Of a DNA stretch of 64,000 bases, positions 32,647-35,003 are shown piece after piece. Origin of the DNA: Streptomyces deccanensis (GTDB lineage: Bacteria; Actinomycetota; Actinomycetes; Streptomycetales; Streptomycetaceae). The stretch is taken from the NCBI RefSeq assembly GCF_022385335.1, contig NZ_CP092431.1:5270001-5334000 (forward strand), read 5' to 3'. Positions within the stretch are counted from its first letter, which is position 1. Each line of letters begins with the position of its first letter. The position numbers and the translations under genes were made by a program. Under the pieces are notes generated by a model. The model saw only the letters and a list, made by a program, of their open reading frames with translations, searched no databases and had not been told where the DNA came from.

Positions 32647-32693
32647 TTCCGGTCTACGCTGAGATGGTCGCGCTGAGCGAACGGAGGTCTGTC

Positions 32694-33335
32694 ATGGCGA
32701 CGGCGGAGCCGATCATCATGCCGGGGTATCAGGGCGAGTACATTTGCGGTCCCTACGACGATCCTGACGGCGAGTACGAGAGGCCCGTGCCCATGGGCGG
32801 CGTAAGCGTGGAGCAGGCCTTCGATGTGTTCAGTGCGGCGGCCCCCGAGGGTTGGCGCGTGGAGCTGATCGAAGGGGAGATCTGCGTGACACCTCCGGCC
32901 AACGGGGAGCACGAGGAGTTCGTTTCAGAACTCAGCGGGCAGGTCCGCGACCACGACAAGGCGTTGGGACGCTACACGGGCATCGGCTTGAGCGTCCCCG
33001 GAGCATCCGGTACCGGCAACGTGATTCCCGACATGGTTGTGGCTCCGAAAGGCAGCTTCCACGACGAGCAGGAGTGGCACGATCCCTCTGCTGTCCTTCT
33101 CGTGGCCGAGGTCACCTCGACCAGCACCGGGGACCGTGATCGCGAGACGAAGATCCTCGGCTACGCCCGCGCCGGTATCCCCGTCTACCTCCTCATCGAC
33201 CGCGAGGAAGCCGAGGTCACGGTGTTCTCGGAGCCGTCCGCCGACAGGTACGCGAAGGCGGTGAAGTGCAAGCTGGGCATGGTGGTACCCCTGCCCAGCC
33301 CCCTCGGCTTCGACCTGGACACCGCCGAGTTCTGA
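32694..33335 (+). CDS. Uma2-family endonuclease (PD-(D/E)XK fold)
   Basis: 213 residues. The Uma2 domain spans about 35-205: GWRVELIEGEICVTPPANGEHEEFVSEL opens it. The catalytic set is Asp in NVIPDMVVAPK, Glu in LLVAEVTS, and Lys in RETKILGYARAGIPVYLLIDRE, the best-conserved Uma2 segment. The first 30 residues are a short Pro/Gly-rich lead. ATG 32694 is chosen over an in-frame upstream ATG because ACGGAGG sits 7 bases before it. Uma2 genes are highly multiplied in Streptomyces and other bacteria; a link to mobile elements or nucleic-acid conflict is suspected but unproven. Confidence 0.9.
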   Translation: MATAEPIIMPGYQGEYICGPYDDPDGEYERPVPMGGVSVEQAFDVFSAAAPEGWRVELIEGEICVTPPANGEHEEFVSELSGQVRDHDKALGRYTGIGLSVPGASGTGNVIPDMVVAPKGSFHDEQEWHDPSAVLLVAEVTSTSTGDRDRETKILGYARAGIPVYLLIDREEAEVTVFSEPSADRYAKAVKCKLGMVVPLPSPLGFDLDTAEF

Positions 33336-33359: not shown

Positions 33360-33458
33360 TCAGCGCGGGAACGCGTTGGCCGCTGTCATCAGGGCGGTGA
33401 TCGCGAGGAGCGCGGCGGCGACTGAGCGGGTGTGGCGGGTGAGCAGGTCTCGGATCAC
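33360..33458 (-). CDS. Short hydrophobic peptide gene divergent from an XRE-TPR regulator (candidate signal pro-peptide)
   Basis: A 32-codon frame from GTG 33456-33458 to TGA 33360-33362, with GGGAGG placed 5 bases before the start. The peptide is basic at the N-terminus (MIRDLLTRHTRS), then hydrophobic (VAAALLAITALMTA), and ends ANAFPR, so it reads like a short export signal with an AxA-type site followed by a tiny C-terminal product. It is divergent from an XRE-TPR regulator and separated from it by inverted repeats. In RRNPP systems (PlcR, NprR, Rgg) such peptides are exported, trimmed and re-imported to bind the regulator's TPR domain; this role is inference. It could instead be a small membrane protein. 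Confidence 0.55.
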   Translation of the reverse strand: MIRDLLTRHTRSVAAALLAITALMTAANAFPR

Positions 33459-33534
33459 GGGGACCTCCCAGCGGCGGCGACGGCGGCGGCGATGCGACAG
33501 GGGCTACGAGGGTGACCGGGTGGCTGACTCGTGA

Positions 33535-33562
33535 GTTAAGCGTGCTTAACGTGTCGCTTAAC
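33535..33562. promoter_or_regulatory. Palindrome plus third half-site in the peptide/XRE-TPR divergent region
   Basis: GTTAAGC (33535-33541) and GCTTAAC (33544-33550) form a perfect 7-bp inverted repeat around GT. A further GCTTAAC follows at 33556-33562. It lies about 75 bases before the peptide start and 90 bases before the regulator start. The AT-rich motif stands out in this genome and is a good candidate operator for the XRE domain protein. Confidence 0.65.
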
Positions 33563-33621
33563 GTAAGGCTTTGGCCTACCAACGGCAAGAGTGCGGTGGG
33601 GAGTTGGGTAAAAGGGCCGAT

Positions 33622-33647
33622 GTAAGCGGGGTTACTGGCATGCTTAC
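33622..33647 (+). promoter_or_regulatory. Inverted repeat directly before the XRE-TPR start codon
   Basis: GTAAGC (33622-33627) and GCTTAC (33642-33647) are complementary and resemble the GTTAAGC/GCTTAAC half-sites upstream. They end three bases before the ATG, a position suited to autorepression. Confidence 0.45.
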
Positions 33648-33650
33648 GTC

Positions 33651-35003
33651 ATGGCAGGCATGGCCGAGCGTGACGACCCCGAGGTCATCGGGCGCAGAGT
33701 GCAGCAACTGCGGACGGAACGGGGCCTCACACAGCGGCAGTTGGCGGAACCGGCGTACACCCCGGCGTACATCTCGACCCTGGAGGCCGGCCGGGTGCGC
33801 GCCTCGGAACCCGCGCTGCGGCATATCGCCGAACGGCTCGGCGTCGGCTACGAGGAACTCGCCACCGGCCGCCCCGAGGGCTACGCCACCGAGCTGCGGC
33901 TCCGGCTGACCGGCGCCCAGCGCACCCTCGCCAGCGGTGCCGGCGAGGCCGCCGCCGAGGGGTTCACGGCCGTCCTCGCCGAGGCGGAGAAGTACGGCCT
34001 GGTCGCCGAACAGGCCGACGCACTGCTCGGCCTCGGCGAATGCGCCCTGGAGACCGGCGACCTGGAGACCGCCCAGCTGCGGTTCGAGCAGGTCGAGCAG
34101 CGGCTCGGCGACGCCCCGCTGCCGGCCCGGGTCCCCGCCCTGCGCGGCCGCGCGACCGCCCACTACCTCGCCGGTGAACTCCGCTACTCCTGCTACCTGT
34201 ACGAGTCCACGCTCGACGAGCTGAACCGCAACGGCATGCACGACCCCGACGCCCTGCTGCTCCTCTACACCGGCGTCATCGCCCCCTACATGGACATGGG
34301 CGCCCACGCCCGCGCCGCCCAGGCCGCCGAGCTGGCCCTCGCGCTCGCCCCGCGGTCCGGCGACCCGGCCCTCGTCGCCCGTATGCACCGTTCGGTCGCC
34401 CGGACGATGATCGCCGAGGGGCGGATCGCCGAGGCCGACGCGTCCCTCGCCAAGGCCTCCGAGCTCTACCGGCAGCTCCAGATCCGCACCGAGCTGGCCA
34501 ACTGCCACTGGATGCGCGGCTACCTCCACGCCCAGAACGGCGACTACGCCCGCGCCGAGGAGGAGCTGCGCGAGGCCCGCCGCATGCTCTCCGCCAAGCG
34601 TGCCGCGCTCTACACCAGCCAGGTCGCCGTCGAACTCGCCGACGTCCTGCACCGCCGGGGCAAGTCCGAGGAGGCCGCCGAACTGCTCCGCGAGGTGCTC
34701 AGCGACCTCAGCTCCGAACGCGGCGCCCTGCACTCCGCCGCCGCGCACCGCCTCCTCGGCATCATCGCCGAGGACCGGCGGGACACGGACGCCGCCGAGG
34801 AACACTACGTACGGGCGCTGAGTTTGCTGGAGCGGGCCGGCGCCGCCGGTGACCTGGCCGACCTGTGCCGGCTGCTGGGCGATCTGTACCGCCGCACCGG
34901 CCGCGTGGAGGCCGCCCTCGACGCCTACCGCACGGGCCTCGGCCACCGCACGGCCCCCGGCACCACCACCCTCGGCCCGGCCCCCGCACAGCCGCCTCTT
35001 TGA
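33651..35003 (+). CDS. XRE-family regulator with C-terminal TPR repeats (RRNPP-like architecture)
   Basis: 450 residues. An N-terminal XRE helix-turn-helix (about 10-70: VIGRRVQQLRTERGLTQRQLAEPAYTPAYISTLEAGRVRASEPALRHIAERLGV) is followed by an all-helical region with eight or more TPR motifs to about residue 430 (EQADALLGLGECALETGDLETAQLRFEQVEQRLGD; LLGIIAEDRRDTDAAEEHYVRALSLLERAG; LCRLLGDLYRRTGRVEAALDAYRTGLG). HTH plus TPR is the architecture of RRNPP peptide receptors. I recall close relatives throughout Streptomyces with no assigned function. No strong ribosome binding site precedes ATG 33651; initiation at the ATG at 33660 or from a leaderless transcript is possible. Divergent from a short peptide gene. 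Confidence 0.88.
   Translation: MAGMAERDDPEVIGRRVQQLRTERGLTQRQLAEPAYTPAYISTLEAGRVRASEPALRHIAERLGVGYEELATGRPEGYATELRLRLTGAQRTLASGAGEAAAEGFTAVLAEAEKYGLVAEQADALLGLGECALETGDLETAQLRFEQVEQRLGDAPLPARVPALRGRATAHYLAGELRYSCYLYESTLDELNRNGMHDPDALLLLYTGVIAPYMDMGAHARAAQAAELALALAPRSGDPALVARMHRSVARTMIAEGRIAEADASLAKASELYRQLQIRTELANCHWMRGYLHAQNGDYARAEEELREARRMLSAKRAALYTSQVAVELADVLHRRGKSEEAAELLREVLSDLSSERGALHSAAAHRLLGIIAEDRRDTDAAEEHYVRALSLLERAGAAGDLADLCRLLGDLYRRTGRVEAALDAYRTGLGHRTAPGTTTLGPAPAQPPL

Follow-up and report, generated by a model that had tools for sequence, protein, structure and literature searches.

Peptide-sensing systems of the RRNPP type consist of a receptor that combines a helix-turn-helix (HTH) with tetratricopeptide repeats (TPR), and of a short gene beside it for an export-signal precursor whose C-terminus holds the peptide (available part of PMC9765709). 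Intracellular sensing of this kind is described as a trait of Firmicutes, the signals of Actinobacteria being typically small molecules made by enzymes, and the RRNPP_detector was run on Firmicutes and viruses (excerpts of PMC10075063); the Streptomyces signals named in an excerpt of PMC13220807 are gamma-butyrolactones. The word stem 'actinobacter' is absent from the available part of the RRNPPA survey (PMC9765709), and no RRNPP-type system of Streptomyces is reported in the excerpts of the literature searched, no wider absence being claimed. Here we describe a divergent gene pair, a very short gene and an XRE-TPR regulator gene, in a stretch of 64,000 nucleotides (the window) from the 10.1-Mb chromosome of Streptomyces deccanensis, for which a sequence-only reading had proposed RRNPP-type peptide signalling.

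The tiny gene, overlooked in the Streptomyces genome, appears from its sequence to code for a secreted short-peptide precursor. On re-reading of the window sequence the 32-codon frame was confirmed, together with its well-placed GGGAGG and its export-signal-like sequence; its translation is VIRDLLTRHTRSVAAALLAITALMTAANAFPR (32 residues), and the product of the minus-strand frame 33360-33458 started at GTG is MIRDLLTRHTRSVAAALLAITALMTAANAFPR. The perfect palindrome, the third half-site and the weaker inverted repeat that had been proposed for the gap were all found there, and the divergent 450-residue XRE-TPR protein was verified by HTH_31 and TPR matches. The features are as follows.

33360..33458, minus strand, stop included: putative 32-codon peptide-precursor gene with GTG start and TGA stop, a basic head, a hydrophobic core and the end TAANAFPR
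33363..33377, minus strand: codons 28-32, NAFPR, candidate mature peptide by presumed cleavage, proposed from the conservation of Pro and Asn and from comparable [WFYL]P ends in far relatives
33464..33469, minus strand: ribosome site GGGAGG, 5 bases before the GTG
33535..33550, no strand: operator palindrome GTTAAGC-GT-GCTTAAC, perfect, widespread among relatives and at one place in the genome
33555..33562, no strand: third half-site CGCTTAAC, at a fixed spacing from the palindrome
33622..33635, no strand: weaker second inverted repeat GTAAGC-GG-GGTTAC, preceding the regulator start
33651..35003, plus strand: XRE-type HTH and TPR regulator of 450 residues, likely a peptide receptor (Pfam HTH_31 at residues 13-71 and several TPR families)

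We consider it probable, at roughly 60%, that this pair is an RRNPP-like exported-peptide signalling unit in Actinomycetota, autoregulated through overlapping divergent promoters, where RRNPP-like refers to the proposed mode of action and not to an established descent. We infer the following course, together with the promoter positions and the sign of regulation. The precursor of the short gene would be exported through its signal-peptide-like core and trimmed to a C-terminal peptide of a few residues that contains a proline (in far relatives NWPKH, GWPRH or GYPWPK); in the window, a cut by signal peptidase after TAA would give NAFPR and a cut after ANA would give FPR. The peptide would be re-imported by an oligopeptide permease and bind the TPR superhelix of the adjacent XRE regulator. 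Binding may alter the hold of the regulator on three TTAA half-sites across the overlapping divergent promoters, and the peptide gene and the regulator gene would be switched together. The observations that carry this reading concern the gene itself, the codon-level selection on it, its link to the regulator and the operator, the modelled HTH and TPR architecture and the recurrence of the arrangement across families. The locus resembles the RRNPP(A) systems (PlcR-PapR, NprR-NprX, Rap-Phr, Rgg-SHP, PrgX, AimR) in that an HTH-TPR protein, with a predicted fold matching PlcR, NprR and Rap, stands beside a short precursor gene with a candidate peptide at its C-terminus. It differs from them in the phylum, in the gene order, which is divergent around a shared operator, and in the slot of the short gene, which is sometimes taken by a peptidase.

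The set of orthologous loci comprised the best 80 of 432 regulator relatives; the best named orthologues are those of S. caniscabiei, Streptomyces sp. MNU76, S. europaeiscabiei and S. stelliscabiei. At 72 of the 80 loci there is a homologous frame, likewise divergent, with a ribosome site (mostly GCGAGGT at the place of GGGAGG) and the common core, so that the adjacent short-precursor gene characteristic of RRNPP(A) systems is present there; frames were picked by a pattern (basic head, hydrophobic run, AxA-like end) which favours precursor-like frames, those of L043 and L057 were added by hand, and the start of L044 was set to 117. Alignment of these frames with that of the window, 73 in all, gave a consensus of approximately M-[LFI]-R-R-x-x-A-R-[YH]-x-R-x-x-x-A-A-V-x-A-V-A-A-L-V-x-A-A-N-A-x-P. 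Three residues never vary among the 73 frames, namely the proline, a leucine and an alanine where the core begins; the Asn of the candidate peptide is kept in 65. Behind the core most Streptomyces relatives have a longer, unconstrained tail, its length being one residue in the window and reaching several dozen at some loci.

The short frame is a conserved gene under codon-level selection. Divergence of the core at codon positions 1, 2 and 3 was 0.245, 0.136 and 0.481, thus highest at the third position. Over all pairs, the ratio of nonsynonymous to synonymous differences (pN/pS) of the core was 0.43 in frame versus 1.60 and 2.29 in the other two frames, while the head and the tail gave 0.94 and 0.95; in 23 disjoint close pairs the core fell to 0.19, with 0.53 in the head and 0.81 in the tail. 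These differences indicate that selection holds chiefly the stretch that resembles an export signal and ends at the proline, and that the tail is nearly free. In 200 column permutations of the core no ratio as low as the observed one arose. The codon conservation for which the sequence-only reading had proposed a test was observed, and the core evolves as a protein. A chance frame in DNA that is conserved for the operator only, which a short gap with a conserved operator might suggest, is hardly credible: it is refuted at the codon level by the permuted controls, by the variable third positions and by ratios above 1 in the other two frames, and the frame and its ribosome site persist at distances of 28 to 225 bases from the operator.

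The operator, too, exceeds chance expectation. Any perfect 7-2-7 palindrome was obtained in 148 of 5000 resampled gaps, the exact consensus GTTAAGC-GT-GCTTAAC in none of 2000, and the motif TTAANCNNGNTTAA occurs at a single place in the whole genome. Among relatives the operator has the form GTTAAGC-NN-GCTTAAC or ATTAAGC..GCTTAAT. When it was scored as matches out of 14 to the window consensus, with a threshold of 11, a score of at least 11 was reached at 57 of 73 frame loci versus 0 of 8 frameless loci (Fisher 2.3e-5, related sequences being not independent). In 39 distinct operators, palindromic symmetry holds for the four TTAA pairs in 36-39 cases, for the outer pair in 21 and for the sixth pair in 18, counts which lean towards palindromes because these operators were picked by score; one locus (L003) carries the symmetric change GTCAAGC..GCTTGAC. 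The pattern TTAA..TTAA..TTAAC was present at 50 of the 73 frame loci, with a span of 27 bases every time, and for the weaker repeat before the regulator the form GTAAG....CTTAC was seen by eye in part of the relatives. Weak -35/-10 elements on both strands overlap the palindrome (by eye); a sigma-70 consensus scan gave no promoter and a terminator scan no terminator. Places in the genome with up to three mismatches to the operator numbered 43 versus 81 in a reversed control, that is, they are not enriched. The single genomic operator and the lack of near-match enrichment suggest that the regulator is dedicated to its own gap.

The predicted structure of the regulator consists of an HTH and a TPR superhelix of repeated helix pairs, so that its size and domains fit an RRNPP(A) receptor (HTH and TPR, within about 250-500 residues). 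The fold matches of the model include generic TPR proteins as well as PlcR, NprR and Rap. The stretches of PlcR and ComR that align best to the regulator fall in the HTH, RGG_Cterm gave a weak match under the cut-off in one far relative, and no clear sequence kinship to RRNPP receptors was found beyond the HTH and generic TPR. Single conserved groove residues, R251, R367, R407 and D411, stand out, and candidate oligopeptide-binding proteins are present in the genome. Among named regulator families the NsdA family of Streptomyces TPR-like regulators (NF053720) scored best (E 4.4e-9), a generic TPR model scoring slightly higher; its cut-off of 75 bits was missed by the window protein (36.4) and by two far relatives (40.3 and 64.2). 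The pair also differs from this family in its short frame, since none of 12 NsdA-family XRE-TPR paralogues of the same genome, used as a control, has such a divergent frame; two other frames met the hydropathy cut there, the first beginning at the regulator start and the second lying at a distance of 440 bases, and neither was precursor-like by eye. The regulator tail PGTTTLGPAPA (residues 436-448) is nearly invariant in the family and has low model confidence.

In other families of the phylum, far regulators have 31-41% identity over most of their length, and further ones were found using one of these as query. Their divergent frames have 28-35 codons, a basic head, a hydrophobic core and a [WFYL]P end like the three far peptides named above (examples: MARKVRYVLQWAALVGGVILAGTANWPKH, MRAHWTVRARYLALTLGTLAAMIAAGSAGWPRH, MKRVVTALVSVLALAALALSGVAGYPWPK). 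Such a frame was found in 15 of 20 far slots, whereas none of 1058 control windows taken at these loci qualified and only 2 among 2000 resampled slots did; nine Streptomycetaceae loci and L228, which has no upstream DNA, were left out of this test. With the frame of L212, added by eye, and four later loci, two of which have a frame (L238, L246) and two of which do not, an adjacent short-precursor frame with the motif stands at 18 of 24 far loci, some of them near-duplicates. The words TTAAC, GTTAA, TGTAAC and GTTACA occur 37 times in the 16 frame-bearing gaps versus 3.6 expected (GTTAAC scoring twice in data and control alike), with at least one in 14 of these 16 gaps. This excess suggests that the DNA code is shared. 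Far-family pN/pS was 0.20 and 0.32 in two close pairs with few changes and 0.56 and 0.78 in wider groups, which is a weak signal. A search for viral copies gave one pattern match, which was not confirmed.

Within Streptomycetaceae the slot is often filled in another way. Of 200 sampled genomes of the family, 99 have the regulator at E 1e-40 or better, and so do 10 of 17 genera; 40 more distant loci of the family were chosen, and divergent partners of at least 230 residues were typed. The partner was Peptidase_M64 at 12 loci (in L161 behind an apparent S33 remnant), Neprosin at 11, an abhydrolase with S33 similarity at two, a mechanosensitive channel at one and a 332-residue frame without matches at one. 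Three loci have no partner of this size, a further one, L190, carries the short peptide, and apart from this no convincing hidden peptide gene was found near the peptidase-paired regulators at the 40 loci. Eight loci (L178-L182, L195-L197) match in the TPR part only, with no HTH aligned, and were left out of the interpretation; seven of them lie in one other genus of the family and are possibly TPR-only relatives. The alignments of L189 and L190 begin only at residue 80 or 92. M64 is also annotated beside the regulator on plasmids of S. clavuligerus and Kitasatospora, and TTAA operator-like half-sites stand ahead of many peptidase genes (by eye). Two unrelated secreted peptidase families, M64 and Neprosin, and an S33-like hydrolase in two loci share one divergent slot in related genera (L160-L189, L083-L086). 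At L187 (second copy in G055) the partner is an OppC-type oligopeptide permease gene, which starts 472 bases upstream of the regulator and might connect it with the import of peptides; by eye, no clear operator stands there. Neprosin and S33 enzymes cleave in a proline-directed manner, which fits a proline-bearing ligand and proves nothing.

The RRNPP-type reading of the locus stands in part. A conserved, codon-selected and exported-looking peptide gene is tied to the regulator and its operator, and the layout recurs in far families; since a peptidase can fill the slot, the target of the regulator is not always a peptide. The regulator family may from the start have been a protease switch, or may later have turned into one. 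Several points weigh against peptide signalling at the locus. The slot in other Streptomycetaceae mostly holds a secreted peptidase (M64 or Neprosin), and the Streptomyces loci with the peptide form a clade nested within those Streptomycetaceae that have a peptidase partner. Motif-bearing frames are missing at 6 of the 24 far loci (no frame at L210, L215, L222, L237 and L239, a precursor-like frame without the motif at L229), and the sequences had already been seen when the [WFYL]P motif, the criteria for a slot and the half-site words were chosen. In the fold matches, generic TPR proteins rank above RRNPP receptors; across 57 sequences the concave TPR positions (2, 5, 9, 12, 13) were no more conserved than other helix-A positions (mean entropy 1.72 in the groove versus 1.46, p 0.95). 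The operator score is below 11 at 16 of the 73 frame loci, and at L006, L008, L010 and L019 the operator is degenerate and the frame retained. A regulon search of the genome found no second full-match operator and one site with two mismatches, so that no output is visible beyond the loop itself. Eight loci have the regulator without the frame (L004, L009, L026, L029, L030, L036, L038, L040), two of them, L004 of S. stelliscabiei and L009 of S. scabiei, among the ten best orthologue matches. The sequence-only reading had named frameshifts or stops in close relatives that keep the regulator as a refutation of it, and this outcome is seen in part: at these 8 of 80 loci the frame is outright absent and the operator is gone or degenerate too. 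The regulator can therefore serve without the peptide, or it responds to others. At L026, L029, L030, L036, L038 and L040 the repeat at the regulator start is still there, and the gap in several of them appears partly filled by what we take, from its resemblance, to be a DUF397-type gene.

Some of these points would suit a short gene that codes for a small membrane or secreted effector peptide, for example a membrane-active one, merely repressed by a TPR regulator that senses something else. The hydrophobic segment is under selection, the regulator has no other visible target, so that the peptide could be the output, and in relatives the slot encodes an effector, the secreted peptidase. Nevertheless we consider this unlikely: a short proline-bearing end behind an AxA-like site recurs in far families and is unneeded for a membrane effector, and the persistence of regulators without the peptide speaks against a toxin-antitoxin pair.

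The nesting of the peptide clade bears on a further explanation, that in Streptomyces a former M64 or Neprosin peptidase gene left the frame behind as a remnant or reduced form of its signal-peptide end, the regulator family being one of peptidase regulators answering to extracellular protein or peptides. Both kinds of partner start with a signal-peptide-like stretch (by eye), and the genome of the window has no M64 gene (Neprosin was not searched there). However, a dead remnant is incompatible with the purifying selection on the frame and its retention at 72 of 80 loci, the peptide frames of far families lie outside the peptidase-paired clade, and a signal peptide that is reduced but works would remain a signal; we regard this origin as quite improbable. 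In the regulator tree, far lineages are mostly paired with a peptide and other Streptomycetaceae mostly with a peptidase, with several long branches and an unsettled inner order. Nesting among peptidase-paired clades suggests that the Streptomyces peptide may be a new gain and not inherited; either an ancestral peptide was repeatedly replaced, or Streptomyces regained the peptide. Tentatively, and with somewhat less than even confidence, we propose that Actinomycetota own a widespread peptide-pheromone family, which combines TTAAC-type half-sites and an HTH-TPR receptor with a divergent precursor whose short tail is of the aromatic-proline kind; in Streptomycetaceae the gene of a secreted peptidase (M64, Neprosin) would repeatedly have taken the place of the signal gene, signal and public good alternating in one slot.

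The arrangement of peptide and receptor recurs in distant Actinobacteria, where such cell-to-cell signalling was hardly expected. If the signalling reading is true, Streptomyces would possess a peptide language encoded in its genes, and whether peptides act as signals in Streptomyces development, an old question, could be tested directly, the candidates being short and synthesisable and the operator known. The alternation of peptide and secreted peptidase in one slot would be a natural experiment on a signalling circuit that gains or loses a public good.

The enterococcal pheromones cCF10 and cAD1, which act on PrgX-type receptors, derive from the hydrophobic region of signal peptides. A similar origin from a signal peptide is proposed here; the difference is a dedicated gene, with the candidate placed directly after the core. 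In S. coelicolor, an oligopeptide imported by BldK is described as a 655-Da peptide (excerpt of PMC9640686). That signal, too, is a Streptomyces peptide, and its uptake is by an oligopeptide permease; no link to the present locus was found. Several fragments of the precursors near 655 Da were considered as the BldK peptide and rejected as matches by chance.

An M20 peptidase was considered as a partner and rejected, since it lies in the flank of 23 of the 80 loci at a variable distance, which indicates local synteny only; it is on the peptide strand in 19 of these 23, four of the 19 being without the frame. A Uma2-family gene (PF05685) at window positions 32664-33335 is convergent with the short frame. 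At the far loci L207, L209, L211 and L238 the peptide frame is followed, on its own strand, by a gene for a similar small protein (FRVWxDR..G.WVWTPIPSGSI..NP), and at L231 and L235 a LuxR-like HTH frame takes this place (by eye). The small protein and the LuxR-like HTH are possible candidates for outputs of the circuit.
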